From IMG/VR virus record IMGVR_UViG_3300027759_004177, positions 292,866 to 356,865 of that record: DNA of 64,000 nt; one strand, written 5' to 3'. Below are positions 12,632 to 37,901 of this stretch, piece after piece (positions within the stretch are counted from its first letter, which is position 1; each line of letters starts with the position of its first letter). The translations under genes and the position numbers were made by a program. A model generated the notes under the pieces. The model was not told where the DNA came from. It saw only the letters and a program-made list of their open reading frames with translations, and searched no databases. The stretch is from a virus.

Positions 12632-12657
12632 AGTTAATATAATTAAGAAATTACAAT

Positions 12658-17688: not shown

Positions 17689-17706
17689 TTTTCCTAGTCA
17701 ACCCAG

Positions 17707-17752: not shown

Positions 17753-17766
17753 TATCCATTTTAACT

Positions 17767-18081
17767 ATGTCAGATATCAATCAACTTGTCGAGCAAGTGC
17801 GTCTTGCCACAGATTATCAAATCAACAAACAAATCTTACGTGAAAAGATCCTAACAGATCTGCATGTTGCCCATAACGGCGGGCTATTTTTTGTTACCAC
17901 AGAGTTGATCGGCTTTTTAACCACATGGCCAGATGATACAGTATACCTTGAAGATACTTATCACAATCCCATTGAAGTTGACCGAATTGAATTGTTGACT
18001 TTGTGTAGAGAACACTATCAAAAAGTAATGAACCGCTGGCATCAAGAACATGCAAAACTCAAACAGATCAGAAAAATCTAG
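17767..18081 (+). CDS. Conserved phage-type hypothetical protein
   Basis: 104 residues, mostly helical and charged ('QVRLATDYQINKQILREKI', then 'ELIGFLTTWPDDTVYLEDTY', then 'EHYQKVMNRWHQEHAKLKQI'). No known catalytic motif. It is the first gene of the long plus-strand operon and overlaps the next gene by 32 bases, so it is probably co-translated with the glycosyltransferase-like proteins. No clear Shine-Dalgarno precedes its ATG. I do not recognise a function. Confidence 0.7.
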   Translation: MSDINQLVEQVRLATDYQINKQILREKILTDLHVAHNGGLFFVTTELIGFLTTWPDDTVYLEDTYHNPIEVDRIELLTLCREHYQKVMNRWHQEHAKLKQIRKI

Positions 18082-18835
18082 AGGTATTGTTGCGTTTGCT
18101 ATCAACACAGCAACCACAGACTATGCCAGCATAGCCCAGCAAACTGTTGCCTTGGCTGCTCGGGTATTAGATTTACCTTATACCATTGTCACCGAAGATC
18201 ATATGGCCCGTATGAATTGGCACAACTATAGACATGATGTAGATCTTGGCCACGAAGTTGAATGGAAAAATTTTGGTCGCAATCTCTGCTATGAGTTGAG
18301 TCCATATGATGAAACCCTGGTCATTGATGTAGACTATGTGGTACAAGATGCTGGACTATTAAAAATATTTGATTTGCCGTGGGACTACTTGTTACAACGA
18401 TCAGCTAGAAGTTTAAATGATGAGTATGTGCCTGAGGTTATGGGTGCTCACAGTTTGCCTTATGTGTGGGCCACGGTGTTTGCATTTAGAAAAACTAGCC
18501 GTGCCAAAACATTTTTTGATTTGGTGCAGAGAATTGAAGCCAACTATCACTATTATAGAGAATTGTTTAATGCGGAAAGTAGGAGTTATAGAAACGATTA
18601 TGCATTTGCCATGGCCGATGTAATACTAAATGGATTTGCTGTTTCCGATGTCAGTATACCAGGACCCATGCTCAACATACTACAACCCGTTGAATCAATG
18701 ACCGTGCAAGGCAATCGAATAGTTATTAAAGACCGACAAACTGCTTATGTGGTGCCAAGGATGAACATGCATGTGATGGGCAAAGCATATCTACAAAGCG
18801 AAAACTTCAAAGAATTTATAAATGCCGCAACATAA
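18050..18835 (+). CDS. Putative glycosyltransferase (GT-A-like, DxD)
   Basis: 261 residues. The N-terminal half reads like a GT-A nucleotide-binding fold: a strand 'GIVAFAINT', later 'YTIVTEDH', and a DxD-type motif 'DETLVIDVDYVV' (D93, D95) that in GT-A enzymes coordinates the metal and nucleotide sugar. After it, 'WATVFAFRKTSRAKTFFDLV' resembles the region following the DxD in GT8-like enzymes. The next gene is a related protein beginning with the same 'VAFAINTxxTDY'-type strand, so the two are likely ancient duplicates. The sugar and acceptor cannot be told. The assignment rests on fold-like motifs only. Confidence 0.6.
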   Translation: MQNSNRSEKSRGIVAFAINTATTDYASIAQQTVALAARVLDLPYTIVTEDHMARMNWHNYRHDVDLGHEVEWKNFGRNLCYELSPYDETLVIDVDYVVQDAGLLKIFDLPWDYLLQRSARSLNDEYVPEVMGAHSLPYVWATVFAFRKTSRAKTFFDLVQRIEANYHYYRELFNAESRSYRNDYAFAMADVILNGFAVSDVSIPGPMLNILQPVESMTVQGNRIVIKDRQTAYVVPRMNMHVMGKAYLQSENFKEFINAAT

Positions 18836-19673
18836 AGAACAACAAGGATTTGTAACCTTTGCACAAAATACACAGGATACAGACTATCTTGACTTGGCCT
18901 ATGTACAAGCATTAAATATTAAAGCAACACAAAAGAATAATCGGTACGCAGTCATTGTTGATGCTGCTACCCGGGAGAAAGTAAATGAACGCCATCATCG
19001 TGTTTTTGATTATATCATTGATTTGCCCGTGGATCATAATGAGCCTACCAGTGCTAGGAAGTTTGCTAACGAATGGCAAGTGTTTCGTCTCACGCCATTT
19101 AAAGAAACTATCAAGTTAGAATCGGACTTGTTGTTTACACGCACGATTGATCATTGGTGGATAGCATTTAGATTAAAGAACGTTTGTCTAAGTACAGGCT
19201 GTAAAAATTATCAGGGAATTAACAGCACCATTCGAAAATATAGAGAACTGTTTGATGCAAACCATTTGCCTGATGTATATAATGGCCTGATGTATTTTAG
19301 ATTCAGTCAAGAAGCCAAACAATTCTTTGAAGCCGCACAGTATATACAAATGAATTGGTCTTATGTACGTACCGGACTTAAACAATGTATGGAAGATCGG
19401 CCCAGCACAGATGTATTGTATGCACTGGCCGCATCAATGGTTGGCCAAGAAACATGCACAATGCCCAGCATGGACTTCTTAAATTTCGTACACCTAAAAC
19501 CCGCAATCAATGGTGTGGAAGAAACTGTACCGGTAACTGATCAATTGGTTACAGAATTTGATCGTGGTATGATACGTATCAACAACGTAAATCAATTACA
19601 ACCCATACATTATTTTGAAAAAGATTTTGTAACAGCAGAAATGAAGGAGTGGTATGAGTCCAGAAATTGTTGA
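18822..19673 (+). CDS. Putative glycosyltransferase-like protein, paralogue of the preceding gene
   Basis: 283 residues. It starts 'GFVTFAQNTQDTDYLDLAYV', paralleling the previous protein ('GIVAFAINTATTDYASIAQQ'), and has 'KETIKLESDLLFT' where the neighbour has its DxD; here the motif is E100-S-D102, so metal coordination may differ. 'YNGLMYFRFSQEAKQFFEAA' matches the equivalent acceptor-side segment of the neighbour. It overlaps the upstream gene by 14 bases and the downstream gene by 20. Probably a sugar-transfer enzyme or a divergent partner in a heterodimer; function unproven. Confidence 0.55.
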   Translation: MPQHKEQQGFVTFAQNTQDTDYLDLAYVQALNIKATQKNNRYAVIVDAATREKVNERHHRVFDYIIDLPVDHNEPTSARKFANEWQVFRLTPFKETIKLESDLLFTRTIDHWWIAFRLKNVCLSTGCKNYQGINSTIRKYRELFDANHLPDVYNGLMYFRFSQEAKQFFEAAQYIQMNWSYVRTGLKQCMEDRPSTDVLYALAASMVGQETCTMPSMDFLNFVHLKPAINGVEETVPVTDQLVTEFDRGMIRINNVNQLQPIHYFEKDFVTAEMKEWYESRNC

Positions 19674-20022
19674 AGCATTGCGGTTAGTTGAAGAATACGA
19701 TCGTCAACGTCCCAAACTGACAACAGAGTTTAGGATATACCATGACGAAGAAGGTCGAGTCACCATGTATTGTGAAACTGCTCATCCCGACGATACCAAC
19801 TACATTGTGATAGACAATCCTGATATGTTTTTTAAAACCAATACTGGTAGGTTGCGTGTAATCGATGGAGAATTAAAGATTATCGACACACGACCAACAC
19901 GAACACATCTTGCAAAAAGCACTACAGGACAACCAGTAGTACGAGGCATGGCTGCACTGGCATTAACGCCCACAGAAGAATATCAAGACATAGAATATTA
20001 TGACAGAAAAACAATTAATTGA
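19654..20022 (+). CDS. Hypothetical protein
   Basis: 122 residues with an AAGGAG ribosome binding site just before the ATG. The N-terminus is helical ('EIVEALRLVEEYDRQRPKL') and the middle beta-rich ('EFRIYHDEEGRVTMYCETA', 'NYIVIDNPDMFF'), resembling a small beta-sandwich adaptor. No motifs of known enzymes. It sits between two glycosyltransferase-like genes with overlaps on both sides (20 and 23 bases), so it is expected to act with them. I do not recognise the family. Confidence 0.65.
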   Translation: MSPEIVEALRLVEEYDRQRPKLTTEFRIYHDEEGRVTMYCETAHPDDTNYIVIDNPDMFFKTNTGRLRVIDGELKIIDTRPTRTHLAKSTTGQPVVRGMAALALTPTEEYQDIEYYDRKTIN

Positions 20023-20899
20023 CGTTGCAGACTTAGACTGCATCTATCTAACATATGACGAACCAAACAAAGAAACAAACTGGATCCGGATACAAAACAT
20101 GGTCCCGTGGGCCAAAAGAGTAGACGGAGTTAAAGGCAGTGACGCAGCTCACAAAGCGGCTGCAGACGCTAGCGACACAGACCGTTTTATTCTTATTGAT
20201 GGTGACAACGTTCCAGATCCTGAATTTTTCAATTTACAACTGGCCCTTGACAAAACCAATGACTCTTGCGTTTTTCGTTGGAGGGCTCGCAATGCCGTTA
20301 ACGGACTGATGTATGGCAATGGTGGTATGAGTTCGTGGACTCGAGAGTTTAGCTATGCTATGCGTACACACGAAGCAACAGACGGCTCTGCAGAGAATGA
20401 TGTAGAGTTTTGTTTTTATCCCAACTACTGGGCTATGAATGATTGCTACTCAACCACGTATCCCAATGCAACACCTTATCAAGCATGGCGAGCCGGCTTC
20501 CGAGAAGGCGTTAAGATGGCCCTGGATCGTGGAGCAAAGATTTCCATGCAAGAATTTGAAAGTCGTGTTAATACTCGTAACTATGACAACTTATGCATCT
20601 GGCAAAGTGTGGGTAGCGATGCAGAGCACGGTTTTTGGGCCATATACGGTGCCAGACTTGGTACATATATGATGATGTTGGAGGGCTGGGATCATCGACA
20701 GGTACAGGACTTTGATGTGTTGGCAATGTTGTGGAGAAACTTTGAACAAGATGGCCCAGACCAATGTCGTAGCGTAGGAGATATCTTACGCACACGACTA
20801 GGCTTGCCTATTGTGGACATGGATCCTGAAGAAAGCCGATTCTTCAAACATCATTATAAATCAATGTTTAAAAATCAAGGTCCCATGGTCAGAGAATGA
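20000..20899 (+). CDS. Putative glycosyltransferase (GT-A-like, DGD motif)
   Basis: 299 residues. 'DRFILIDGDNVPDPEFF' gives a D67-G-D69 motif after a hydrophobic strand, as in GT-A glycosyltransferases. Downstream 'NAVNGLMYGNGGMSSW' and 'PYQAWRAGFREGVKMAL' are clearly shared with the C-terminal domain of the 610-residue protein at 39064 ('NPVNGLEYGHQG', 'WMTWRTAFREVVKL'), so the two are one family in this phage. This copy keeps the acidic DxD; the other does not. It overlaps the upstream gene by 23 bases and its stop overlaps the next start as ATGA. The donor sugar is unknown. Confidence 0.6.
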   Translation: MTEKQLIDVADLDCIYLTYDEPNKETNWIRIQNMVPWAKRVDGVKGSDAAHKAAADASDTDRFILIDGDNVPDPEFFNLQLALDKTNDSCVFRWRARNAVNGLMYGNGGMSSWTREFSYAMRTHEATDGSAENDVEFCFYPNYWAMNDCYSTTYPNATPYQAWRAGFREGVKMALDRGAKISMQEFESRVNTRNYDNLCIWQSVGSDAEHGFWAIYGARLGTYMMMLEGWDHRQVQDFDVLAMLWRNFEQDGPDQCRSVGDILRTRLGLPIVDMDPEESRFFKHHYKSMFKNQGPMVRE

Positions 20900-21615
20900 A
20901 TATCTTAGTCAATGGAACTTCTATCAGTCGCGGCGAAAATTCGTGGCCATATTTTTTACAATCGCAGATGAATTGTTCTTTGATTAATCTAGCTCAGGCT
21001 GGTAGTGGCAACACGTACATACATGAAGCAACAGTAGCAGAACTCAGCGAAAGATCCTACAACCTCGTGTTAATACAATGGACATACGCAGATCGTTTTG
21101 ATTTCAGAGTTAAAGATATCAGCAAGTTCGGCGACACAACATATACAACCAACTTTCAATCCCGGCAGAACGATTGGCCTAGCAAACAAATACATCCTGT
21201 AAATGATCAAGACTACGTACAACCGGATTGGATATTTGGATGTGGGTATCTAAACGAACGCCAGGATAACAGCCTTGGCAGGGTATTTAAACCTTTATAC
21301 CAGCACGTTGGAGCAAATGAACATGTATTTTCAACTTTAATAAAAATTATATCATTGCAAAGCACACTCAAGGCCTTGGGTATTCCTTACTTGTTTACAG
21401 AATACCGCCCAATGACTCGACTAAGTCGATTCGATCAGCTTTACAAATTAATTGATTGGAATAACTTTTATTCGGGCAAACATTTATTTACTATTGCCAA
21501 AGAACATGATGCACTGGATGATACTTTACACCCATCCACGGAATGTCAGCAACTATATGCCGTTGACTTACATAACGATTTAGTTAAACGGGGATATATC
21601 AATGCAAGATCTTAG
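20896..21615 (+). CDS. SGNH/GDSL hydrolase-like protein
   Basis: 239 residues. The SGNH blocks are visible: block I 'NGTSIS' (nucleophile Ser candidate near residue 8), block II Gly in 'AGSGNT', block III-like 'IQWTYADR', and block V 'DDTLHPS' near the C-terminus supplying Asp/His. Family members hydrolyse or transfer acyl groups, often on carbohydrates. It is the first of five SGNH-type proteins in this operon (others at 24456, 32934, 33801 and 34420), and shares the 'QWT' signature with the one at 34420. It is translationally coupled to the upstream glycosyltransferase through ATGA. Confidence 0.65.
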   Translation: MNILVNGTSISRGENSWPYFLQSQMNCSLINLAQAGSGNTYIHEATVAELSERSYNLVLIQWTYADRFDFRVKDISKFGDTTYTTNFQSRQNDWPSKQIHPVNDQDYVQPDWIFGCGYLNERQDNSLGRVFKPLYQHVGANEHVFSTLIKIISLQSTLKALGIPYLFTEYRPMTRLSRFDQLYKLIDWNNFYSGKHLFTIAKEHDALDDTLHPSTECQQLYAVDLHNDLVKRGYINARS

Positions 21616-22594
21616 CCCAAACAATCCAGCAGGTTGTCAAGATCGATTCATCTTTGATTTGAACGACAACAGAATCTGGAACATCAACGGGTTTATTAAA
21701 TTTTTAGTTGATAATCAAGGTCGAGTCATTGACATAGAGATACCCGAGGGTGTGGCGTTAGACAGCATAGGCATTTACGATTTGTTAGATTTGTTCTCAT
21801 TTAAATCGGTCACTATACGCAGTTTTAATCTAGTGCAACAATCACATCCTGTATACAAATTAAATTTTCATCCGTTGGCATTTAAATACTTTATTGTATC
21901 TCCTAATACAGATTACAGCCAATATCATGGTTGGTCTGGAAAATATATGTTTGGGGCATTTTATAATAGACCAACTTGGTCACGAATTGGCCTAGCCGCA
22001 TATTTACACACCAATCACAGTGACAAGACTCTGTTGAATTTCCGTTACGACCCTGACAATACAGACATTAGAAACACATTTGAACTAGACCAACTATTTC
22101 AAATTGACCCTAAATCCTTGGAATATTTTGGTCATCTAATACCTGCGTTGCCATTACGAGTGGAGCCCGTGGATGGGTACACCATCGGAGTCAGCACCAA
22201 AGAGCATACTGACCAACTTAGTGAATTTTATACTGACTTCTTAATTGACATTGTAAGCGAAACATTTGTACGTGGCAGATGTTTTTATCCTACAGAAAAA
22301 ACTGTTAGACCCATGCTGATGAAAAAGCCTTTTATACATATGGGACCCAAATGTTTTTTAATACATTTACGTCAAATGGGATTTCGAACGTTTGGTGATT
22401 TTTGGTCCGAGGACTATGATGGATACGGTATGGATCAGCGGTATAAGTATATACTCAAATTAATTGACACGCTGGCAGCCAAGTCCAAACAAGAACTACA
22501 AGACATGTATGCCCGTATGCAACCAATTTTAGAGCACAATTATCAATTGTTACTGACAAAACAATTTACACGAGAAATTACCTATGTTGAATAG
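21602..22594 (+). CDS. Putative glycosyltransferase, GT10/exostosin-like C-terminus (copy 1)
   Basis: 330 residues. The C-terminal 110 carry 'SETFVRGRCFYPTEKTVRPM', then 'KPFIHMGPKCFLIHLRQMGF', 'TFGDFWSEDYDGYG' and 'MQPILEHNYQLL'. The pattern 'TEK-x-x-R/K-P ... G-F-x-T-F' resembles the nucleotide-sugar-binding half of GT10 fucosyltransferase- or exostosin-like enzymes. The same block appears in the next gene and in the minus-strand gene at 37887, so the phage has three copies. The N-terminal half differs more between copies and probably binds the acceptor. Neighbouring overlaps are 14 and 11 bases. Specificity unknown. Confidence 0.55.
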   Translation: MQDLSPNNPAGCQDRFIFDLNDNRIWNINGFIKFLVDNQGRVIDIEIPEGVALDSIGIYDLLDLFSFKSVTIRSFNLVQQSHPVYKLNFHPLAFKYFIVSPNTDYSQYHGWSGKYMFGAFYNRPTWSRIGLAAYLHTNHSDKTLLNFRYDPDNTDIRNTFELDQLFQIDPKSLEYFGHLIPALPLRVEPVDGYTIGVSTKEHTDQLSEFYTDFLIDIVSETFVRGRCFYPTEKTVRPMLMKKPFIHMGPKCFLIHLRQMGFRTFGDFWSEDYDGYGMDQRYKYILKLIDTLAAKSKQELQDMYARMQPILEHNYQLLLTKQFTREITYVE

Positions 22595-23630
22595 CGAATA
22601 CCATGTTGGTATCAACGACAACAAGTTTTGGCGTAAAGACTTGTTAGTTATGCACCTGTACGATTGCTTAAACACCAACCAACAGCCAGCCCTGCGGGTA
22701 ACTCCAGAAGGTTCAAGCCTTGCAGGCTGTGGTTTATATAGGTACTTGGATGCGTTTTGCAAACATACTGGATACGATAAAAAGAACATCAGCATACGCA
22801 CAGGCAACATGATCGAACAACACCCTGAGTACACAATTATAAAAGATGCCACCGCTTGGTTCGAAGTTCCTATTATGCAACAATGGGCACAAAAAAATCC
22901 GATCAACACAGGCACTATGCCTAGATTACACTTTGGACACTTTGTTGGAAAAAGCAATTGGAATAGATTGTGGATTGGTGCTGTGTTGCACAGTAAATAC
23001 AATGATAAGTTATTTCAAACATATAACACCGGCATTGGTACACACTATCTTACTAAGAATGACGGCCTTTGTGATTTTGTGGGCTTAGAAGATCTGGTCA
23101 AAATGGAATGTGATCAAATTGATGTGGCTGTCGAATTTTTAAAGTCTTGTCCAAAGTTTATACCTGAGGACATAGAAGCAATTAAAAATATGTCAACTTA
23201 CATCAAACAAGACGATTACTACCCTATACAATTACCAGCCAATCTTAACATATTGAAATACTATAACAATATATTTGTGGACATTATCCATGAAACATTT
23301 GTTCGTGATGAAGTATGTTTTGCTACAGAAAAAACTTGGAGAACAATGTTAGCACGTAGGCCTTTTATTACCATGGGAGGCAGAAATCATTTGGCTAATT
23401 TAAAGCGTCTAGGATTCCGTACATTCAATGACATCTGGGATGAAGGTTACGACGAGTATGGTATGCAGTGGCGTGTTAAAGAAATACTAAAACTAATAGA
23501 TACTATCAGTTCTTGGTCAGTGGAAAAGATACAACAGGTCTTACAAGATATGCAACCTATACTAGAACACAACTATCAAACTTTTATGACACTAACACAT
23601 CAAAAAATACAGCGAACATTCAATGACTAA
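22584..23630 (+). CDS. Putative glycosyltransferase, GT10/exostosin-like C-terminus (copy 2)
   Basis: 348 residues, clearly related to the preceding protein: both have a similar opening ('NDNKFWRKDLLVMHLYDCL' here, 'NDNRIWNINGFIKFLVDN' there) and the C-terminal block 'HETFVRDEVCFATEKTWRTM', 'RPFITMGGRNHLANLKRLGF', 'DEGYDEYGMQWRVKEILKLI', 'MQPILEHNYQTF'. Adjacent position and shared architecture indicate tandem duplication followed by divergence. It is followed with an 8-base overlap by the first radical SAM gene. The glycosyltransferase role is inferred from the motif pattern. Confidence 0.55.
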   Translation: MLNSEYHVGINDNKFWRKDLLVMHLYDCLNTNQQPALRVTPEGSSLAGCGLYRYLDAFCKHTGYDKKNISIRTGNMIEQHPEYTIIKDATAWFEVPIMQQWAQKNPINTGTMPRLHFGHFVGKSNWNRLWIGAVLHSKYNDKLFQTYNTGIGTHYLTKNDGLCDFVGLEDLVKMECDQIDVAVEFLKSCPKFIPEDIEAIKNMSTYIKQDDYYPIQLPANLNILKYYNNIFVDIIHETFVRDEVCFATEKTWRTMLARRPFITMGGRNHLANLKRLGFRTFNDIWDEGYDEYGMQWRVKEILKLIDTISSWSVEKIQQVLQDMQPILEHNYQTFMTLTHQKIQRTFND

Positions 23631-24459
23631 ATTCCATTTACCTTTTGTAGAAATGATGGTTACACAATTTTGTAATCTAAGCTGTGTTGGCTGTAGTAAC
23701 TATGCTGACCTAAAACACACAGGTTATGTTCCTTGGGCAGATGGTCGGCGCGAAATAGAATCGTGGCTACCACGCATGACAATTGAAGACTTTGGTATCA
23801 TGGGTGGCGAGCCCCTGATCAATCCCGAACTTAAACAATGGATACGTGGCTTGCGTGAGTTATTACCCACAAGCCCCATACGCTTTAGCACCAATGGCGA
23901 ATTGCTAGATCGACATTTAGATGTGCTAGAAACAGCACACGAAGTGGGCAACTTTGTTTTTAAGATCACTGTACACCAACACAGCGAGCGTGTAGAACGT
24001 GTCATTGCTAAAATCTTCTCAATGTACAAGTGGGAACCTGTGTACGAATATGGCATCTATCGTTACAAAACCACAAACGGATTAAGATTTCAGGTCAATC
24101 GTCCGCTGACATTTATCAAGTATTATAAGAATGATTACGCCAACATGATGCCGTTCAATTCCAATCCTGTGGATAGTTTCAATATTTGTATGCAACAACG
24201 ATGTCCACTCATGTTCAATGGACGTATGTACAAGTGTAGTACACTAGGCGGATTGGAACAAACACTAGATCGTTTTAGTAACACCGACCCTGCATGGGAG
24301 CCATACAAAGGCAAATACATTACACCTACGAGCCCAGATGCAGATATTGCGGCGTTCTTAAACAATTATGGTCGTCCACATCAAGTGTGTACAATGTGTC
24401 CTACCGCCCAGGATGACGAAAGTGTTATTTTACATTATAATAACGTAATAACAAAATGA
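23623..24459 (+). CDS. Radical SAM protein with C-terminal cysteine cluster
   Basis: 278 residues. 'CNLSCVGC' (C17, C21, C24) is a canonical CxxxCxxC motif binding the [4Fe-4S] cluster that cleaves S-adenosylmethionine, and 'MGGEPL' near residue 60 is the SAM amino-group motif. C-terminal cysteines ('CMQQRCPLMF', 'MYKCSTLGG', 'CTMCP') look like a SPASM or twitch-type auxiliary cluster. It is shorter than, and not closely similar to, the five twitch-type proteins downstream. Family members modify peptides, sugars or cofactors. It overlaps the next SGNH gene as ATGA. Confidence 0.8.
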   Translation: MTKFHLPFVEMMVTQFCNLSCVGCSNYADLKHTGYVPWADGRREIESWLPRMTIEDFGIMGGEPLINPELKQWIRGLRELLPTSPIRFSTNGELLDRHLDVLETAHEVGNFVFKITVHQHSERVERVIAKIFSMYKWEPVYEYGIYRYKTTNGLRFQVNRPLTFIKYYKNDYANMMPFNSNPVDSFNICMQQRCPLMFNGRMYKCSTLGGLEQTLDRFSNTDPAWEPYKGKYITPTSPDADIAAFLNNYGRPHQVCTMCPTAQDDESVILHYNNVITK

Positions 24460-25337
24460 CAAGATTCTTTGCCTTCGGGTGCTCCTTTACTAACTCTAAA
24501 AATCCTACTTGGGCTGACATAGTGGCGCACGAGTACAACCATTACCAAAACTGGGGACAGGCTGGTGCAGGTAATAGTTTTATATTCTACAGTCTAATGG
24601 AATGTAACAAGCGTAATCAGATTACTCCGGACGATGTAGTAATGATCATGTGGAGCAGCATTGGTAGAGAAGATCGTTATGTTGGAGGAGAATGGTTGAC
24701 TCCTGGTAGTATATACAATCAACAAGATTATGATGAGAACTTTGTAAAGAAGTTTACAGATCCAACAGGATACTTGTTACGAGATGCAGCACACTTGGCT
24801 GGTGCTAAAGCCATATTAGATAATATTGGGTGTCGGTATTATTTTTTTAGTATTGTTCCGTTTAATGTTCCAGACGATAACGTTTTTAAAATCTTTAGCA
24901 TAGATAATAAAATATTAAATGTTTATGCTGAAGAATTTCGATCTGTGCGTCCCAGTGTATACGAAGTTGTCTTTGATCACGACTGGTACAGCCGGGCCGG
25001 CATTAAACAAGAAGACAAGCTCAAAGAAGAATACGAAATTAAACGTGGCGATGATTGGCCCACATGGGATAAGTTTATAATACAAGACTTCGGCGGTGTA
25101 CCCAAAGATATTAAAGATGAAATAAACAACCAACACGAGTTTACCAACAGATATTTGCGTAGGTATGACACACATCCAACTCCAGCAGAATATTTAGAAT
25201 ATATCACACGAGTAGCACCAGACATAGAAGTATCCTCTGCCACACAAGATTGGGTAGCAACAGTGACTGATAGATTAATCAAACACCAAGACTTAACCAA
25301 ACTTTGGAAACCTAATAGAAAGCCTGCGAGATTCTAA
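24456..25337 (+). CDS. SGNH/GDSL hydrolase-like protein
   Basis: 293 residues. Block I 'FAFGCSFTNSKNP' has the candidate nucleophile Ser in GCSF, block II is 'GQAGAGNSF', block III-like 'VMIMWSS', and block V 'DTHPTPAEYLEYI'. It is larger than the other SGNH members here owing to a charged insertion around residues 170-215. It lies between radical SAM genes, coupled by ATGA upstream and TAATG downstream, so it is presumably made in step with them. Possible acyl-transfer or deacylation step on the product of this cluster (inference). Confidence 0.65.
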   Translation: MTRFFAFGCSFTNSKNPTWADIVAHEYNHYQNWGQAGAGNSFIFYSLMECNKRNQITPDDVVMIMWSSIGREDRYVGGEWLTPGSIYNQQDYDENFVKKFTDPTGYLLRDAAHLAGAKAILDNIGCRYYFFSIVPFNVPDDNVFKIFSIDNKILNVYAEEFRSVRPSVYEVVFDHDWYSRAGIKQEDKLKEEYEIKRGDDWPTWDKFIIQDFGGVPKDIKDEINNQHEFTNRYLRRYDTHPTPAEYLEYITRVAPDIEVSSATQDWVATVTDRLIKHQDLTKLWKPNRKPARF

Positions 25338-30587: not shown

Positions 30588-31887
30588 ACCGGCAACACTA
30601 TGCATGGCACCATGGACACACACTTATCTTAGTCCACAAACAGAACGACGCTTGTGCTGTGCCAGCCGTGAACCTGCACAAAACTTTGAACAGTATATAG
30701 ATACATCGGCCGGCACAGGACGATACATTCCCATCACATTAGATGAGCATTGGAACAGTGAACACATGCGTAGTGTGCGCCGTAGAATGATGGCTGGAGA
30801 AACCTTGCCCGAGTGTGAAGTGTGTAACAACAAACTATTAAACACAGACGTTTACCGTAGTTATTTTAATCAATTGTTTGGAGATAAGTACTTACAGGCC
30901 CGAGAGCATACTGATGCAACAGGCTACACGACAATGAAGCCAGTTTCGTGGGATTACAGGTTCAGCAATCTCTGTAATTTTAAATGCCGCATGTGCGGCG
31001 ACATGTTGTCGAGTGCTTGGGAGAGCGAGCAACGCCAACACGGAATGATCGACTTTACAAATCCAAAGAACAATTGGATGCGTCTTGAAGTCAAAGAGCA
31101 AATAGAACAGTTTCAAGACACCCAGATAGAGCAAGAGTTTGCAGATGCCGTGGAACAGCATCGAGTTGAGGAAGTCTACTGGGTTGGTGGTGAACCGTTG
31201 ATGTATGAGCAACACTGGCGCTATATGCAACGGATAATTGAATTGGGAGATGGACCAAATGTTTACGCTCGATACAACACTAATCTTAGTCGTATTAGTT
31301 ATAGAGGCGTTAATTTGTTTAGCGATATTTTATGCCGGTTACGTGACTGGCAAATCTGTGCAAGCATCGACGGCACGGGCAGAATTGGAGAGTATATTAG
31401 ATCAGGTCTTGATTTTGATCAGTGGCTTGCGAACATCCGCCAGGGACTTGCGTACCACCATCACCGCCGCCAGATCCGTCTGGACTTCACTCTTACTACA
31501 CCAGGACTCTTTGAAGTACAAGCGATACAAACGCTCGCCCAAGAACTCGGAGTAGATGTTTTAGCAAAGGTGGTGTTCTCGTTTAGTCCGGACATCATTA
31601 TGAGCCCGTTGGCACTACCTAAAGATGTACTGCATCCTTGGATAGACGAAATTGTGAATGGTACTCCTGGGGAACGTCCTCTTACCGGCCCGTTACGGGA
31701 CATACTGATTCAACTCAAAACAAGACCCACTTTTGCCGAACAATGGCCTGACTCGTATCAAGCAGGCCTACGCAAGGGCAAACAACGAATTCTACAGTTG
31801 GAAAAAATCAGAAACGACACATATACGTTTAGAGATATAATGTACTCGAGACCTGCGGCACTAGAATGGTATGACTCAATCAATTAA
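30580..31887 (+). CDS. Twitch-type radical SAM protein 5
   Basis: 435 residues. Auxiliary cysteines at the N-terminus ('LCMAPWTHTYLSPQTERRLC' followed by 'CASRE', and 'ECEVCNNK'), then 'CNFKCRMC' near residue 132, 'GDMLSSAWESE' and 'WVGGEPLM'. The C-terminal part is the most divergent of the five. It is the last radical SAM gene of the array and overlaps the unknown gene at 31871 by 17 bases. Cluster ligands and the GGE motif are intact, so an active enzyme is expected. Confidence 0.82.
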   Translation: MNKPATLCMAPWTHTYLSPQTERRLCCASREPAQNFEQYIDTSAGTGRYIPITLDEHWNSEHMRSVRRRMMAGETLPECEVCNNKLLNTDVYRSYFNQLFGDKYLQAREHTDATGYTTMKPVSWDYRFSNLCNFKCRMCGDMLSSAWESEQRQHGMIDFTNPKNNWMRLEVKEQIEQFQDTQIEQEFADAVEQHRVEEVYWVGGEPLMYEQHWRYMQRIIELGDGPNVYARYNTNLSRISYRGVNLFSDILCRLRDWQICASIDGTGRIGEYIRSGLDFDQWLANIRQGLAYHHHRRQIRLDFTLTTPGLFEVQAIQTLAQELGVDVLAKVVFSFSPDIIMSPLALPKDVLHPWIDEIVNGTPGERPLTGPLRDILIQLKTRPTFAEQWPDSYQAGLRKGKQRILQLEKIRNDTYTFRDIMYSRPAALEWYDSIN

Positions 31888-32956
31888 AGTAATCTTACGC
31901 AACCCTTTAAACTACACAGATCAAGTTGATTATACAATTACGGCTGCAGATAACCAATTGGCACGGGATTGGGTATCAGCATTAAAATTAGAACTATCGA
32001 GTGGTCGGCTATTAGAAAAGAATTTTTGTTTTATGGGTTTTCCCCGTACAGCCCGCACACTGGAATATCTTTGTGACGAACTCAATCAAGCAGTAGATAT
32101 CATTAATAGTTCTGGCATAGAATATCATATTCCTGAAGTGTTTTCCCCTGACACGGTACGTGGATTTGATTATGCAGATAATGGTGTCAATCATGCTGTA
32201 ATGAATCAACTACACAATCACTTTGAGCGATTGCAAGGAACTGTTTGGGGTTTAAGTGATTATTACCGACGTGCCAACTACGAAACAAAGTATGCTATCC
32301 GACAGTTAAACAACATCTGTCACGAGATGGAAAACCTAATACTAAGTCAGCGTAAAGAAGCCACAGCACCTTATTGGGTACGTCCAAGCCAAATTACTAC
32401 ATTTCTACAAGCCGAGCGTTATGACCTCAAAGGCGAACATCGCACAGGGTTTGCCATCAATGGATATGATCGTGTACTAGGCGGAGTATATATGCATTGG
32501 ACACAGATAGGCAAAACCTTGTTTGAAGTGTTCCGCGACGAAGGAGCACCAGAACTTACAGCAACAACGTGTGAGGCCATCACAGAGTTAAAATACTACT
32601 CAGGCGAATTTGATGTAGAGTGGGGTAACGATGTGACCTTACTAGGCGACAACAATCCTTGGCACACAAAGGAGCAGATAGAGTTTCGCAAGTGGCTAAT
32701 AGCCAACAATCGAGATCCTGCAGATCCTGCATTAAGTCTAGGATACTTGCCTGTAGGACAAGTAGAATTGACAAAGAGTTTTGGTACAGCAGATTATCAA
32801 CAGATATGGAACATACTTGGCAATCATTTGGACATATATCAAATAGAAGCAGGAGACGTATCCGCAACATTTGATTATTGCTGGACCGATGCCACGTACA
32901 AACAACAACAAATAGATCGGATGAGGCCGGGATATGACTATAGTAGCCGGGGGTGA
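31871..32956 (+). CDS. Uncharacterised protein following the radical SAM array
   Basis: 361 residues, no recognised domain. Visible features are a helical middle with 'NQLHNHFERLQGTVWGLSDY' and 'YAIRQLNNICHEMENLILSQ', a beta segment 'GFAINGYDRVLGGVYMHWTQ', and an acidic C-terminus. The cluster of histidines (HNHFE, CHEME, MHW) could bind a metal, resembling four-helix-bundle metal proteins, but this is only a guess. It sits at the boundary between the radical SAM genes and the SGNH trio with overlaps on both sides (17 and 23 bases), so it may be a substrate-binding partner. Confidence 0.65.
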   Translation: MTQSIKVILRNPLNYTDQVDYTITAADNQLARDWVSALKLELSSGRLLEKNFCFMGFPRTARTLEYLCDELNQAVDIINSSGIEYHIPEVFSPDTVRGFDYADNGVNHAVMNQLHNHFERLQGTVWGLSDYYRRANYETKYAIRQLNNICHEMENLILSQRKEATAPYWVRPSQITTFLQAERYDLKGEHRTGFAINGYDRVLGGVYMHWTQIGKTLFEVFRDEGAPELTATTCEAITELKYYSGEFDVEWGNDVTLLGDNNPWHTKEQIEFRKWLIANNRDPADPALSLGYLPVGQVELTKSFGTADYQQIWNILGNHLDIYQIEAGDVSATFDYCWTDATYKQQQIDRMRPGYDYSSRG

Positions 32957-33737
32957 TAGTTTTGTTTTTGGTCACGAATTAAAAGACTGCGGCAAGAACC
33001 CTAGTAAAAATACCTTTACGGCTTTATTGGGCGCCGACGTTTGTGTAGCTCGTGGCGGATACTCCAATAGTGCTATTGCTAGAACAGTGATGTCTGAATG
33101 CAGTCGACATCAAGACAATCTTGGCGTTATTGTTAGTTGGACTTTTTCTAGTAGGTTTGAATTTAGATTTGCCTACAGTACTGGACAAGTTAGCAGCCCC
33201 TGGTACAGCATCAATGCCTGGACCATAGAAGATAATTTTGAAAATATCAAAAGTGAGTTTGTTACAGAAAACGAAGCAATATTTAACAGCCAAGTAGAAA
33301 CTATAAAACGGGCACAGAGCACAGGGGTACAGGACTTTGCAAAAACATTTTATAAACATGTGGGCAGTACAGAGTACTGGGAAATATATACTACACTTAA
33401 AGAAATTGTATTATTACAAAATTATTTGAAGCTACGCAATATACCTTATATGTTTACCTGTGCTGATAACCAAATTGTAAAAAATTATACTGTAGACAAT
33501 GCAGACGTACATATTTCTGCATTATACAATCAAATTGATTTTGATCATTGGTTTTGGTTCCCGCCGGGCACCGGAGCAAATCAAACCGAAACCCCAAGAG
33601 GTTTTTATCAGTGGGCCGTGGAGAATAAATACCCAGTAGGCACCACACATCCGCTGGAACAAGCACACATAGACGCATCCACGTTGATGCAAGGAAAATT
33701 CAATGAATTGGTTACGAAACATTTACAATCGAATTAA
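32934..33737 (+). CDS. SGNH/GDSL hydrolase-like protein
   Basis: 267 residues. Block I 'GGDSFVFGHEL' carries the candidate Ser, block II 'RGGYSNSAIA', block III-like 'IVSWTFSSRFEF' and block V 'TTHPLEQAH' with the catalytic-type His. It is the first of three consecutive members (with 33801 and 34420) that share an HPLE(Q/L) block V. The long middle segment contains aromatic loops ('DHWFWFPPG'). Possible esterase, acyltransferase or sulfotransferase-like substrate handling; the exact reaction is not deducible. Confidence 0.65.
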   Translation: MTIVAGGDSFVFGHELKDCGKNPSKNTFTALLGADVCVARGGYSNSAIARTVMSECSRHQDNLGVIVSWTFSSRFEFRFAYSTGQVSSPWYSINAWTIEDNFENIKSEFVTENEAIFNSQVETIKRAQSTGVQDFAKTFYKHVGSTEYWEIYTTLKEIVLLQNYLKLRNIPYMFTCADNQIVKNYTVDNADVHISALYNQIDFDHWFWFPPGTGANQTETPRGFYQWAVENKYPVGTTHPLEQAHIDASTLMQGKFNELVTKHLQSN

Positions 33738-33804
33738 ACTAGAATTACGCTATCGCAAGAAGTTAAAAGAGCTTCGTAAACGAGATCCATTTATCTATAA
33801 ATGA
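33703..33804 (+). CDS. 33-residue basic peptide
   Basis: A short ORF that overlaps the end of the upstream SGNH gene and the start of the next (ATGA at 33801-33804). It has a good Shine-Dalgarno, AAGGAAAA at 33691-33698. The product is strongly basic: 'MNWLRNIYNRIKLELRYRKK' followed by 'LKELRKRDPFIYK'. It has an amphipathic N-terminal helix and a 'RDPFIYK' tail that I believe recurs in small proteins of related phages (from memory, not checked). It fills the only gap in this part of the operon. It might bind a membrane surface or nucleic acid. Confidence 0.6.
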   Translation: MNWLRNIYNRIKLELRYRKKLKELRKRDPFIYK

Positions 33805-34445
33805 TTTATTGTATCGGAGACAGTTTTACCTACGGGGAAGAACTTGCTGACCGTAATACAGCATGGCCGGCAATATTGGGTAAAAAATTAAATCAACCTG
33901 TGACCAATTGGGGCAAACCAGCAACTGGAAACCATCGCATGGTCAAGCGTACAATGGATGCTGTATTTGCGGGTGCTTCGTTGATTGTCGTTGGTTGGTC
34001 AGATCCAGCTAGACAAGAGTTTGCTGATGATATCAGTATTACTGACTTATGGGCAGGTAGGGATTATCGTAGAATGCAAACCTGTACTGATCATCGACGT
34101 GATTTAATCAAGTATATGACAGCGTATGACGTTCCGGGATATTACTACGCACAGTGGATACGACAAATCGTTTTAACACAGACTTTTTGTCGTGCAAATG
34201 CCGTTCCTTGTGTGATGTTTAGTGCGTGTAATGCTGAAAGTTGGAATATTGATTATATAAAAAAACAAAGTCAACACGAGCATTTAACGCGACACGTAGA
34301 TGTAGACACATACATTGGTTGGCCATATTCAGGATCAACGGAATGGACATATGGTACACCGCATGGCCCGGGCGGTCATCCTCTGGAACAGGGTCATGAG
34401 ATTATAGCAGAAAAAATTTATGAGCATATTAGCCGTCGGGTGTAG
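33801..34445 (+). CDS. SGNH/GDSL hydrolase-like protein
   Basis: 214 residues. Clear SGNH blocks: 'GDSFTYGEEL' (block I Ser), 'ATGNHRMV' (block II Gly), 'VGWSDPARQEF' (block III position) and 'GGHPLEQGHEIIAEKI' (block V His). The compact length and the order of blocks match the next gene closely (shared 'PGGHPLE...GH..IAEKI.EHI'), so they are recent tandem duplicates. Start is fixed by the ATGA overlap with the small basic peptide gene. Confidence 0.7.
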   Translation: MIYCIGDSFTYGEELADRNTAWPAILGKKLNQPVTNWGKPATGNHRMVKRTMDAVFAGASLIVVGWSDPARQEFADDISITDLWAGRDYRRMQTCTDHRRDLIKYMTAYDVPGYYYAQWIRQIVLTQTFCRANAVPCVMFSACNAESWNIDYIKKQSQHEHLTRHVDVDTYIGWPYSGSTEWTYGTPHGPGGHPLEQGHEIIAEKIYEHISRRV

Positions 34446-35070
34446 TTTTACAGCAGGTGCAGAATTACCCAATCCTGCAGAATCTGCTTGGCCCAACCTA
34501 ATAGGAAAATTAAATAATCGTCCAGTAAAAAATTTGGGACTTGGCGGCGCATCCAATGATCGTACATTTAGATTGGTTATAGAGGAAACTGCTCAACAAC
34601 GATTTGATTTGGTTGTTATACAGTGGACTGAACCTAGTCGTATGGAAATATGGAATGCCCGCCGCCGCAATACCATGGATGTAAATATAGGAAAGTTGCA
34701 TTCAAACATGTTTGAGATGTCTTGGCTCGATACTTACTATTGCAATCACTACGATGATTTCCACGCTCATCGTAAATGGGCCGCACAGATATTGTCCTTG
34801 CAAGGATATTTAAAATCAATCGATCAGCCCTATGTTATGGTCAGTTTAAATGGACTTGATCAAAGACTTTACACGGGTGCATGGAGTAGTGTAAAATACT
34901 TGTGGGACGGTGTTGACACCATGCATTACCCAGGTTGGCCGTTTGAGGGAATTTATATGTGGCAAGGTGATTGTCCTAGAGCTCCCGGCGGGCATCCATT
35001 GGAGCTGGGACACAAAAGAATAGCAGAAAAAATAAATGAGCATATTAGGAATCTCGGCTGGCTTCCATGA
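34420..35070 (+). CDS. SGNH/GDSL hydrolase-like protein
   Basis: 216 residues. 'VGCSFTAGAEL' (block I), 'GGASNDRTFR' (block II), 'VIQWTEPSRMEIW' (block III position) and 'APGGHPLELGHKRIAEKI' (block V). Paralogue of the gene immediately upstream, with which it overlaps by 26 bases. It overlaps the carbamoyltransferase gene by 35 bases, so SGNH activity and carbamoylation are probably made together. Confidence 0.7.
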   Translation: MSILAVGCSFTAGAELPNPAESAWPNLIGKLNNRPVKNLGLGGASNDRTFRLVIEETAQQRFDLVVIQWTEPSRMEIWNARRRNTMDVNIGKLHSNMFEMSWLDTYYCNHYDDFHAHRKWAAQILSLQGYLKSIDQPYVMVSLNGLDQRLYTGAWSSVKYLWDGVDTMHYPGWPFEGIYMWQGDCPRAPGGHPLELGHKRIAEKINEHIRNLGWLP

Positions 35071-36517
35071 CGCCGCCATTTCGTTAATTAACTCCGATGG
35101 AGAAATAGTATTTGCCGGGCATTCAGAACGCTACAGCAAACGTAAGAACGATCCAAATCTTTGTATTAGTCTATTAGAAGAGATATGCGATTACCCCATC
35201 GATACCATCGCATACTATGAACGACCTTGGAACAAACAATTACGTCAATTGTACAGTGGGCAAGGAATAGAGTGGAACAAACTTTTTGTTAAACAAATTG
35301 TTCGGGATCAATTGCATGGCTGGTTGGCGTATCCTCCTAAAAACATAAAAACTTATAATCATCATTTGAGTCACGCCGCAGCAGGATTTCAAACAAGTGT
35401 GTTTGACAAAGCCACAGTGGTTGTAATTGATGCTATTGGCGAATGGGATACCATTAGCATTTGGGGTGCTCATTACGTGGATGGTCAGGCCAAATATCAC
35501 AGACTGTGGGGACAGCGGTATCCGCATAGTATTGGACTGTTTTATTCAGCAATGACTCAGCGTGTGGGACTAAAACCCAACGAAGAAGAGTACATATTAA
35601 TGGGCATGAGTGCATATGGTAAAGATAATGTTGCTGACGTTATAAAAAATGCTGTAATTAACAATGAGTGGGATTTGACTTTTAAACAAAATTTACACAC
35701 TGGCGTTGACACGGAGTTTTTACGTGGAATCTCAGACATGGATATTGCCACATCTAGCCAGGCTTTTACAGAAAATCTGATATATAATGTTATGCGTCGA
35801 GCCAAAGACTTTGGCTGGAGCAGAAATTTGGTTTACATGGGCGGAGTTGCCCTAAATTGTTTAGCTAATCGTAATCTTGGTGATTATTTTGAAAAAATTT
35901 GGATCATGCCTAATCCTGGTGACGCTGGTAGCAGTCTTGGCGCCGCTGCCCTTGCCTACGGTAAAAGAATTGACTTCAACAACGCATACCTTGGTCACTG
36001 CATTAGCGGCGACTATCCCGTCAATGCCATCCTTGATTGTTTACTCCACGATAAAATCGTTGGAGTTGCTTCCGGCCGAGCCGAATTTGGACCTCGTGCC
36101 CTTGGGAACAGAAGTCTCCTCGCCGATCCGCGTGGATCAGATATAAAAGATCGTGTCAACCAAATCAAACGTCGTCAAAAGTTTAGGCCATTTGCGCCGG
36201 TTATCTTGGCTGAGCAAGCTGAGTTATTTTTTGATATGCCCCGTGGTTTCAGTGATAGTCCATATATGCAGTCAGTCGCCCATTGCCGGCATCCTGACAC
36301 TTACCCTGCTATTGTGCATCACGACGGCACTAGCCGAGTACAAACGGTTACAGATAATGGCTCAGGCATTAGAGAACTCCTAGAAAAATGGTATGTAATG
36401 ACCGGCTGTCCCATGTTGCTCAACACCAGTCTCAACATTAGAGGTGAACCCATGGTCAACGATCGTGCTGATGCAGATCGATTTGAACAACTATACGGAG
36501 TGCGTGTATGCTCGTAA
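35036..36517 (+). CDS. O-carbamoyltransferase, NodU/CmcH/TobZ family
   Basis: 493 residues. The N-terminal Kae1-like domain opens 'ILGISAGFHDAAISLI' and contains the metal-binding 'HHLSHAA' (H110, H113) and 'MGGVALNCLANRN'. The C-terminal YrdC-like domain carries 'GRAEFGPRALGNRSLLADPR' and 'NTSLNIRGEPMV', diagnostic of this family, which transfers a carbamoyl group from carbamoyl phosphate via carbamoyl-AMP to a hydroxyl of a sugar or antibiotic. It is somewhat short but shows all key motifs. Its place among glycosyltransferases and SGNH proteins suggests a carbamoylated sugar. Confidence 0.88.
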   Translation: MSILGISAGFHDAAISLINSDGEIVFAGHSERYSKRKNDPNLCISLLEEICDYPIDTIAYYERPWNKQLRQLYSGQGIEWNKLFVKQIVRDQLHGWLAYPPKNIKTYNHHLSHAAAGFQTSVFDKATVVVIDAIGEWDTISIWGAHYVDGQAKYHRLWGQRYPHSIGLFYSAMTQRVGLKPNEEEYILMGMSAYGKDNVADVIKNAVINNEWDLTFKQNLHTGVDTEFLRGISDMDIATSSQAFTENLIYNVMRRAKDFGWSRNLVYMGGVALNCLANRNLGDYFEKIWIMPNPGDAGSSLGAAALAYGKRIDFNNAYLGHCISGDYPVNAILDCLLHDKIVGVASGRAEFGPRALGNRSLLADPRGSDIKDRVNQIKRRQKFRPFAPVILAEQAELFFDMPRGFSDSPYMQSVAHCRHPDTYPAIVHHDGTSRVQTVTDNGSGIRELLEKWYVMTGCPMLLNTSLNIRGEPMVNDRADADRFEQLYGVRVCS

Positions 36518-37050
36518 GAATTACAGACAATTTTTATCAACTTACTGATGTGTTTAGTCCAACTCTTTATCAAAGACTGACATCTAGTTTTGATCAAGAT
36601 AGATCCGCCTGGAATCAAATTTCAGATGATAACACTGATGTAAAACGTCAACAGTTAAGTTTATCAGTCAATGAATATCTTGCACAACAGATACATGCAG
36701 AATTAAGAAAGTATGTTAGAATAGCAGAACCACGTGTTGGACCACTATATCAAAATGGTCCACAACTATGGTACGACGACAACGGCTATATTAATACTAT
36801 ACATGATGGTGATGTCAGCCCCAACCACTGTGTCAATGTACAAGTTTACCTCAGCAATGGTGCAGAAAACATGGGCACCTGTTGTTACGATGAAGGTGCT
36901 TGGCATAGTGTACCCTATCAAGCCAACTCAGGATACATGCTGATAGGTCCTACTCGTATACCGCATGGTATGCAACATCCAGTAACCAATCACAGAATGA
37001 GTTTATATCAGGGATTTAGAAACACCGAAGTACCGTCAGATATTTGGTAA
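36508..37050 (+). CDS. Putative 2-oxoglutarate/Fe(II)-type oxygenase
   Basis: 180 residues. The pattern 'YINTIHDGDVSPNHCVNVQV' (H99, D102, H107) followed about 45-50 residues later by 'HGMQHPVTNHRMSLYQGFR' resembles the double-stranded beta-helix of small phage 2OG-Fe(II) oxygenases (distal His and the Arg binding 2-oxoglutarate). The usual HxD spacing is not exact (HDGD), so activity is uncertain. It overlaps the carbamoyltransferase by 10 bases. It could hydroxylate a residue or sugar that is later carbamoylated (inference). Confidence 0.5.
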   Translation: MLVRITDNFYQLTDVFSPTLYQRLTSSFDQDRSAWNQISDDNTDVKRQQLSLSVNEYLAQQIHAELRKYVRIAEPRVGPLYQNGPQLWYDDNGYINTIHDGDVSPNHCVNVQVYLSNGAENMGTCCYDEGAWHSVPYQANSGYMLIGPTRIPHGMQHPVTNHRMSLYQGFRNTEVPSDIW

Positions 37051-37061
37051 AGGAAAACAAA

Positions 37062-37901
37062 ATGACACAACGTATTTTAATTATGGGCCTGCCGGGTGCA
37101 GGTAAAACAACCTTGGCTGGTGCTCTTAAAAAGTATTTGGAACAGTACGGAACAATGAGTATGTATTCTGCTGAACAACTTCCAGTAACCGGGTTTGATG
37201 CTAAGGTAACTTGGTTTAATGCTGACGATATTCGTCGTAAGTACAACGACTGGGATTTTAGCAATGAAGGACGCATCCGCCAAAGCCTACGTATGTTTCA
37301 GTTTAGTATAGAAGCCGGCGGAGAATATGTGATCTGCGACTTTGTTGCACCCTTGGTAGAAATGCGTAACAACTTCAAAGCTGATTGGACCATTTGGGTA
37401 GATACTATACGTGAAGGTCGTTATGCTGACACCAATGCGGCCTTTGTTGAGCCTGACGTGTATGACTTCCGTGTCACAGAACAAAACGCAGAAAAATGGG
37501 CTGAGTTTATTGGATCGCATATTATTGATAACCGCCGCAGGCCCACGTTTGATTGGCGGAAAGAAACTGTACAAATGTTAGGACGTTGGCAACCTTGGCA
37601 CGATGGACACCGTGCTTTGTTTGAGCGTCTAATACAACGCACAGGACAAGTAGTCATACAAATACGTGACGTACAAGGTTGGCAAGGATCAAATCCATTT
37701 GAAGTAGAAAAGGTTAAAGGCTTTATTCGTCGCGACCTAGATCCAATCTATCAAGGACAATATGAAATACAAGTGGTACCTAATATTGTACACATTGGTT
37801 GGGGTCGTGGAGTAGGATATACCAGTGGTGAAGAAACATTTGATGAAGCTGTCACAGACATCAGTGCCACAAAGATTCGTCGAGAACTAGGACTCAAGTG
37901 A
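37062..37901 (+). CDS. Bifunctional P-loop kinase / nucleotidyltransferase fusion
   Basis: 279 residues from the ATG at 37062, which has AAAGGAAAA just upstream; a TTG at 37044 is less likely. Residues 1-150 are an APS-kinase-like P-loop domain ('MGLPGAGKTTLAGALKKYL', then 'FNADDIRRKYNDWDFSNEGR', 'VICDFVAP'). From about residue 168 comes a nucleotidyltransferase domain: 'GRWQPWHDGHRALFERLI' with the (H)xGH motif and 'ISATKIRREL' near the end. Such a fusion could activate a phosphorylated compound with a nucleotide, as in sugar or cofactor activation. It is the last gene of the plus-strand operon and converges with the next gene, overlapping it by 15 bases. Confidence 0.75.
   Translation: MTQRILIMGLPGAGKTTLAGALKKYLEQYGTMSMYSAEQLPVTGFDAKVTWFNADDIRRKYNDWDFSNEGRIRQSLRMFQFSIEAGGEYVICDFVAPLVEMRNNFKADWTIWVDTIREGRYADTNAAFVEPDVYDFRVTEQNAEKWAEFIGSHIIDNRRRPTFDWRKETVQMLGRWQPWHDGHRALFERLIQRTGQVVIQIRDVQGWQGSNPFEVEKVKGFIRRDLDPIYQGQYEIQVVPNIVHIGWGRGVGYTSGEETFDEAVTDISATKIRRELGLK

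Follow-up and report, generated by a model that had tools for sequence, protein, structure and literature searches.

A conserved gene island with five ordered radical SAM enzymes in uncultured giant phages and its possible role in glycoconjugate synthesis

What would a phage build with 22 closely packed genes, six of which encode radical S-adenosylmethionine (SAM) proteins? The question is raised by the IMG/VR phage record IMGVR_UViG_3300027759_004177 (record total 356,865 bp), the final 64 kb of which (64,000 nucleotides, positions 292,866 to 356,865) is hereafter referred to as the window. A preliminary description, made from the letters of the window, had pointed to about 22 overlapping plus-strand genes forming a single pathway, and 22 open reading frames (g1 to g22) are indeed present on the plus strand at 17767-37901. 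The genes overlap by 1-35 nt at 20 of the 21 junctions, the exception being g17/g18, which lie 63 nt apart, and the overlaps are also kept in relatives. Genes matching tail-fibre and baseplate PHROGs are located upstream of the island, and a putative fibre gene, a6, immediately precedes g1 across 78 nt, these 63-nt and 78-nt intervals being the only gaps on the plus strand.

The island is interpreted here, with somewhat less than even confidence, as one dedicated soluble (cytosolic) amino-sugar glycoconjugate pathway, tailored by radical chemistry and most likely ending on a tail-fibre protein of the virion. A glycoconjugate product is suggested by the sugar-nucleotide enzymes, the predicted glycosyltransferases, the carbamoyl and SGNH tailoring functions and the combination of an invariable core and variable pockets. 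The lack of membrane parts, the position of a6 upstream and the co-variation of the fibre gene with g2 speak for an acceptor that is soluble, most likely a fibre.

Gene order in related viral loci

Viral loci were collected with g13 as the first seed, and with g5 and g16 as independent seeds to guard against seeding bias. The g13 search retrieved 73 viral loci, 58 of which carry on one strand the core order g1-g2-g3-g5-[V1]-g11-g12-g13-g14-[V2]-g15-g16-[SGNH]-g20-[V3]-g22, consistently in all 58. The order was consistent in 76 of the 80 loci obtained with the g5 seed and in all 80 obtained with g16; with the three seeds pooled, among which the same contigs recur, the same core in the same order was observed in 214 of the 218 fetched viral loci. 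Absent core genes mostly fall at the ends of contigs or of the fetched flanks. Stretches of the collection encoding relatives number at least 134 for g5 and at least 149 for g16. Since the order is conserved in more than 200 viral loci, the arrangement is not due to chance, and the single-pathway view of the preliminary description finds support in this comparison of related phages, the homologues being syntenic and not scattered.

Median identity to the window is 70-76% for g5, g11-g15 and g20, and ~40% for a6, g18 and g19. Values of dN/dS against the closest usable relative range from 0.03 to 0.18 where dS is measurable (it is saturated for some genes), and selection on the island genes is purifying. 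Variation is confined to the pockets, which hold SGNH, GT-B and extra radical SAM genes, the core remaining constant; pocket V1 of one relative also encodes an AMP-binding (adenylating) enzyme (L005:5573-6661), consistent with a step that activates an amino or carboxylic acid.

The conservation extends beyond g22. Among the 60 g16-seeded loci that reach far enough, g24 is retained in 59, g25 in 52, g26 in 44 and g23 in 40; the retention of g24, g25 and g26 indicates that the conserved module reaches ~42.9 kb in the window, with g26 (ending at 42908) as its right-hand limit. The aminotransferase (g25) and epimerase (g26), previously regarded as neighbours that could supply an amino sugar, thus belong with the island by conserved linkage.

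The terminase shares ~53% identity with its counterparts in the jumbo phages PA5oct/MIJ3/Paride and in the Atu_ph07/Phosso group, and the island is carried by giant phages that form a large uncultured family. Searches of 50,697 deposited phage records gave zero matches to g11, g5 and g16, and no comparable gene block turned up among these ~50,000 records. In the same records g13 matches only the Vibrio phages K566/K567 (23%) and an 8-kb marine single-cell contig, on which SGNH-like, carbamoyltransferase and N-terminal-twitch (N-twitch) radical SAM genes are again neighbours, and homologues of the carbamoyltransferase occur in 140 deposited phages. The a6-g1-g2/g3-g5-g11-type phage gene order was also seen in five contigs of GTDB metagenome-assembled genomes (MAGs) binned as Pelagibacter, Betaproteobacteria, Verrucomicrobia, Rickettsiales and Rhodobacteraceae (L075, L076, L077, L078 and L101), which are probably phage contigs misplaced in bacterial genome bins.

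Radical SAM, sugar and tailoring enzymes

All six radical SAM proteins of the preliminary description were recovered, g9 by Pfam and g11-g15 by NF033640, the NCBIfam family of N-twitch radical SAM proteins with a curated cut-off of 170 bits. The five core enzymes, g11 (25337..26719; E 7e-91), g12 (26706..28055; E 1e-87), g13 (28052..29383; E 4e-119), g14 (29370..30587; E 3e-98) and g15 (30580..31887; E 1e-85), all on the plus strand, score 288-398 bits over their full length and are all past the cut-off. Their CxxxCxxC motifs and N-terminal auxiliary-cluster cysteines are intact, seven positions being 100% conserved in the 84-108 dereplicated orthologues of each family; the invariant cysteines of g13 are C40, C58, C59, C100 and C103, and C154, C158 and C161. 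In a tree of 181 radical SAM proteins, g11-g15 form five separate clades with support of 0.91-1.0 (g11, 0.999; g12, 0.982; g14, 0.932; g15, 0.911), and the only intruders, in the g13 and g14 clades, are diverged relatives from phage-like MAG contigs and, in the g14 clade, one bacterial protein. Judged by their sequences, g11-g15 appear to be maintained, non-redundant enzymes. The sixth protein, g9 (23623..24459, plus strand; Pfam E 1e-13), carries C-terminal auxiliary-cluster cysteines and belongs to a variable pocket; only a few loci possess it, and there its median identity is 90%.

Radical SAM proteins of this family are numerous elsewhere in the record, which holds 12 clear N-twitch matches, 10 of them past the NF033640 cut-off; no match above cut-off was found in 14 control genomes. 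Ten more viral contigs (200-519 kb) encode 1-16 N-twitch proteins each, and one viral contig of 518 kb has eight inside ~15 kb. A second cluster of the same record, at ~202-217 kb on the minus strand (G000:C1, L314), encodes four N-twitch proteins, an SGNH-like protein and g7/g8-like proteins; it also encodes a fusion of a nucleotidyltransferase with a mannose-6-phosphate isomerase domain, which supports the interpretation of the island as a glycoconjugate pathway. A different recurring island with several N-twitch proteins and g8-like and SGNH-like proteins is present in viral contigs L054-L073, and L073 additionally encodes a B12-binding radical SAM protein of 718 aa, a further radical SAM protein and a cytidylyltransferase-like protein. 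In the bacterial neighbourhoods of N-twitch genes (105 neighbours), only radical SAM/SPASM and Glycos_transf_2 recur, and since they do so modestly, the bacteria gave no function for the family. Two side observations concern such clusters: a methyltransferase-like protein and a RecA-family protein are encoded among the radical SAM genes of the second cluster at ~202-217 kb, and an 83.9-kb MAG contig of Bacteriovoracaceae, a predatory-bacterium bin (L081), has seven clustered N-twitch-like genes.

Glycosyltransferases are predicted from conserved motifs. The products of g2 (18050..18835, plus strand; invariant D93, D95, D183 and H241) and of the core gene g3 (18822..19673, plus strand; conserved E100, D102 and H263) would be of the GT-A and GT-A-like type, respectively, and keep, in all or almost all orthologues, a DxD/ExD motif and a C-terminal HxxxK, the K having been read from the window sequences. 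The highly conserved core protein g5 (20000..20899, plus strand; D67 and D69 conserved) is a predicted GT-A glycosyltransferase or nucleotidyltransferase; its AlphaFold2 model (predicted local distance difference test score, pLDDT, 78.9) matches mostly GT-A glycosyltransferases or sugar nucleotidyltransferases, with RmlT, GtrB, PcManGT and HddC as the best PDB entries (E 0.006-0.05). In other contigs the g5 profile also matches a portion of long open frames (610-950 aa), which suggests that g24 (39064..40896, plus strand), a large conserved protein without a family match and probably GT-A-like, resembles g5. Predicted GT-B-type enzymes are encoded in a variable pocket by g7 (21602..22594, plus strand; ETxxx..PTEKTxRP) and by g8 (22584..23630, plus strand), its paralogue by alignment, with the TEK motif common to both, and on the minus strand by g23 (37887..39065), where an ETxxx..TEK motif like theirs was recognised by eye. 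The five glycosyltransferase-like proteins of the preliminary description are plausible but weakly supported candidates, pointed to by invariant acidic and C-terminal His residues and by a weak GT-A fold match for g5, and a significant Pfam match is what they lack.

On the minus strand, g25 (40877..41986) is a DegT/DnrJ/EryC1 sugar aminotransferase (Pfam E 2e-77) and g26 (41961..42908) an NAD-dependent sugar epimerase/dehydratase (Pfam E 1e-45); the conservation of these sugar-specific genes at the right end supports an amino-sugar glycoconjugate. The kinase-nucleotidyltransferase fusion reported earlier was verified in the core gene g22 (37062..37901, plus strand; the start is probably ATG 37062 rather than TTG 37044), which joins an APS-kinase-like P-loop half to an NMNAT-like half with HxGH and ISxTxIR motifs and is likely, from these motifs, to activate a phosphorylated sugar.

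Of the tailoring functions, the O-carbamoyltransferase seen previously is well founded: the core protein g20 (35036..36517, plus strand; Pfam E 3e-48) is of the TobZ/NodU type, with novobiocin carbamoyltransferase, GdmN and TobZ as PDB relatives, both Carbam_trans_N and Carbam_trans_C domains, and HHxxH and other acidic or His positions conserved in 80 orthologues. The five SGNH proteins, all on the plus strand, fared unequally. Whereas g18 (33801..34445) passes the cut-off of the SGNH/GDSL hydrolase family DUF6071 (Pfam E 1.2e-7), g19 (34420..35070; E 8e-5) and g6 (20896..21615, pocket V1; E 1.7e-5) are DUF6071-like and below it, and g10 (24456..25337, in a variable pocket; GCS ... DTHP) and g17 (32934..33737; GDS ... 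HP) are SGNH-like by motif only. Another SGNH-like gene (GSS...HP) lies outside the island at 43813-44598 on the minus strand, between thymidylate synthase and dihydrofolate reductase (DHFR); a check of 60 far-reaching relatives did not find it.

The putative 2-oxoglutarate (2OG) oxygenase, g21 (36508..37050, plus strand), could not be retained, the Pfam E-value being 0.07 only, and is treated as an accessory protein with no family assigned. The core protein g16 (31871..32956, plus strand; AlphaFold2 pLDDT 90.3) belongs to a phage-only fold family: no PDB entry matches its fold (best E 0.3), and its relatives in BFVD are phage proteins, with E-values down to 1e-22 and including one of Agrobacterium phage Atu_ph07. 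A g16 profile search gave nothing in Atu_ph07, K566, P-SSM2 or C48C1. A resemblance of g16 to cyclophilin was low-scoring and partial and was judged not meaningful.

From these components a pathway may be outlined, its substrates, reaction types and acceptor being inferred. Initially, g26 and g25 would convert an NDP-sugar into an amino sugar, and g22 would phosphorylate and activate a further building block. Sugar transfer would then fall to the predicted glycosyltransferases g2, g3, g5 and g24 and to the variable g7/g8/g23, with g2 paired with the fibre variant a6. The five non-redundant N-twitch enzymes, with accessory ones such as g9, may run successive radical reactions on the sugar or the glycosylated peptide, the candidates being epimerisation, dehydration, deoxygenation and the formation of C-C or C-S bonds. 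Finally, g20 would add carbamoyl groups and the SGNH enzymes would add or remove acyl groups. The core would provide a constant scaffold, and variety in the outer decoration would come from the variable pockets (SGNH, GT-B, extra radical SAM), much as it does in surface-antigen loci.

The fibre gene, transcription and competing explanations

The candidate acceptor, a6 (16693..17688, plus strand), is a Ser/Thr/Asn/Gly-rich putative fibre protein, its role being deduced from its composition and from the neighbours a2, a4 and a5, which match tail-fibre PHROGs; a6 itself has no PHROG match. It precedes g1 in all 37 loci holding both genes and is often tandemly duplicated, four loci (L005, L006, L016 and L020) having two diverged copies upstream of g1. 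Within 9689-16651 of the window, the N-terminal domains of a2, a4 and a5 are similar and their C-terminal parts different, and a3 is adhesin-like with 28% glycine.

Co-variation was examined through pairwise divergence in 73 dereplicated loci after removal of the g5/g11/g12 signal. The partial correlation with a6 is 0.31 for g2 and 0.30 for g4 (19654..20022, plus strand), a small variable protein of 122 aa that co-varies with both a6 and g2, each value being reached in 0 of 500 permutations. It is lower for the two intervening genes, g1 (0.12; between a6 and g2) and g3 (0.13; between g2 and g4); g1 (17767..18081, plus strand) is a small conserved core protein of 104 aa with a median identity of 57%. 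The sign of the difference between g2/g4 and g1/g3 was kept in ~99% of half-samples, which are not independent, and the effect is modest. Physical linkage alone would favour g1, and we read the co-variation as a probable functional matching of the predicted glycosyltransferase with the fibre.

The 78-nt gap between a6 and g1 (17689..17766, plus strand) contains a hairpin overlapping a sigma70-type promoter, TTGACA-17-TAAACT (17707-17735), the only such promoter in the window located in a gap and reading into a plus-strand gene. In 61 non-redundant homologous gaps the hairpin is far stabler than in shuffled sequences (mean z -3.84; 51 below -2) and persists although its arms vary in sequence between relatives. 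A promoter with at least 10 of 12 matches is present in 39 of these 61 gaps as against 3 shuffled ones, and its -10 hexamer falls within the hairpin in 37 of the 39. The element is terminator-like, a compact stop-and-restart between the a6 and island operons; it indicates that the island is its own unit, probably separate in transcription from a6, with a promoter probably read by the host RNA polymerase. Late co-transcription with the fibre genes was considered and rejected in view of the conserved hairpin and promoter. The T4-type late promoter TATAAATA has zero occurrences in the window, so no timing can be inferred from that motif. The earlier suggestion of attachment to fibres therefore stands as regards the conserved position of a6 and its co-variation with g2, and is weakened by the probable separation of the transcription units.

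With such a promoter, the island enzymes might instead act during infection on the surface polysaccharide of the host (lipopolysaccharide, LPS, or capsule) and remodel it, for instance to keep competing phages out, as has been suggested for P-SSM2-type clusters. The closest described clusters, with glycosyltransferases, epimerases, HIGH nucleotidyltransferases, carbamoyltransferases and 2OG enzymes, have been so interpreted (PMC7824862; PMC2984593), the variable pockets resemble antigenic diversification, and the island of the K566 relative also encodes the lipid A acylation protein PagP (PMC12028318). Given the dedicated promoter and these published readings, host-surface remodelling is a serious rival, yet on balance an unlikely one. 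Taking a membrane-like segment of 19 residues as the criterion, none was found in the island proteins of the window or in the 321 variable-pocket proteins, and such segments occur in only 3 of ~1,000 dereplicated core orthologues as against 136 of 653 proteins in bacterial control loci; the pathway therefore supplies no flippase, polymerase, ligase or lipid-carrier transferase. The core identity of ~70% and the fixed order also differ from the sporadic, polymorphic published clusters; a6, too, keeps its place ahead of the island in relatives, and it co-varies with g2.

That the product is a free secondary metabolite, or a glycosylated peptide with radical modifications, of the ribosomally synthesised and post-translationally modified (RiPP) kind, is distinctly improbable. 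Peptide maturation is where radical SAM enzymes with auxiliary clusters are most often met, relatives of g20 include antibiotic enzymes, and one pocket holds the AMP-binding enzyme mentioned above. A jumbo-cyanophage cluster is moreover predicted to make a halogenated sugar/amino-acid metabolite (PMC7824862). However, the only peptide-sized genes are g1 and g4, neither of which is Cys-rich, the plus-strand gaps leave just 63 and 78 nt, no transporter or membrane protein was seen in the island, and its conserved place adjoins fibre genes.

Hypermodification of phage DNA bases is very improbable indeed: some phage DNA-modification systems do combine kinases, glycosyltransferases and a radical SAM enzyme, classes that overlap with those of the island (P-loop kinase included), and thymidylate synthase and DHFR are encoded nearby, but the record, which may be incomplete, has a single thymidylate-synthase-family gene, whose motif LGVPFNIASY carries the Asn that we take to be typical of true thymidylate synthase, and hence no dCMP/dUMP hydroxymethylase was found in it, and the block adjoins fibre genes with no DNA-modification neighbour in sight.

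Several points weigh against the soluble glycoconjugate pathway favoured here. The proteins g2, g3, g5, g7 and g8 are without a significant Pfam match, as are orthologue scans of g2 and g7/g8, PDB profile searches with g2, g5 and g7/g8 named no glycosyltransferase family, and the fold match of g5 reaches E 0.006 at best with a low template-modelling score. We know of no substrate for any N-twitch radical SAM enzyme. The lack of phage membrane proteins does not exclude use of the lipid carriers and flippases of the host. The promoter separates the island from the fibre operon and suggests expression by the host polymerase, perhaps early, which would be compatible with host modification too. Recombination blocks might account for some of the co-variation of a6 with g2 and g4, but the genes in between, g1 and g3, speak against this.

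Relation to described systems and implications

The nearest described systems are the polysaccharide-modification ('LPS') clusters of jumbo phages and cyanophages (Iyer et al. 2021, PMC7824862, section 3.4.10), among them the 24-gene cluster of P-SSM2. Like the island, they are phage-borne and multi-gene, with an NAD epimerase/dehydratase (compare g26), a HIGH-type nucleotidyltransferase (g22) and a carbamoyltransferase (g20); they also have glycosyltransferase paralogues, for which the island offers candidates predicted from motifs and one weak fold match. They are, however, sporadic in presence and polymorphic among related phages (PMC7824862), whereas the island has a fixed ordered core in more than 200 loci, five orthologous N-twitch enzymes and no membrane part. 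An ordered conserved core of several radical SAM enzymes is not reported for them, and the word 'radical' is absent from the main text of PMC7824862. NF033640 itself is named from domain layout only, and no published description of tandem sets of five or more such proteins in phages was found. Thus, phage glycan clusters are already known, and the ordered core of five radical SAM enzymes is, as far as the literature found goes, undescribed.

A cultured relative is offered by the island of Vibrio phages K566/K567 (VPK566_0302-0314), with five strong N-twitch matches, two of them past the cut-off. It differs in gene order, has ~23% identity to g13 and is without homologues of g11, g5 and g16. 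In K566, four of the five N-twitch matches sit among unannotated genes that we judge, from their N-terminal sequences, to resemble glycosyltransferases, which supports a glycoconjugate function. The region has been described as a replacement of an anti-defence island, with glycosyltransferase and lipid A genes named and radical SAM not mentioned (ISME J 2025, PMC12028318). The carbamoyltransferase g20 shares both domains and the conserved residues with the TobZ/NodU/GdmN enzymes but, unlike them, sits inside a radical SAM core. In virion glycosylation of mycobacteriophages the glycosyltransferases are reportedly phage-encoded, and to our knowledge no radical SAM, carbamoyl or SGNH tailoring occurs there. 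Mycobacteriophages nevertheless provide a precedent for glycans on the virion (Freeman et al. 2023, cited in PMC10568470).

There is some, rather small, likelihood that a structural protein of the virion (or its glycan) is matured by a conserved cascade of at least five different radical SAM enzymes, the fibres receiving a radical-modified, carbamoylated and diversified glycoconjugate that defines host recognition or stability. Radical SAM enzymes perform some of the hardest chemistry in biology, and the keeping of five as an ordered and strongly conserved core implies an important gain for the phage lineage. Without a match to g11, g5 or g16 in the deposited records, the system has gone unnoticed in work on cultured phages. 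Should the product be placed on the fibres, it would add a new layer of host recognition; if it is placed on the host instead, the island would be an unusually elaborate surface-remodelling kit. The island also offers a concrete gene context for working out the role of the N-twitch radical SAM family.

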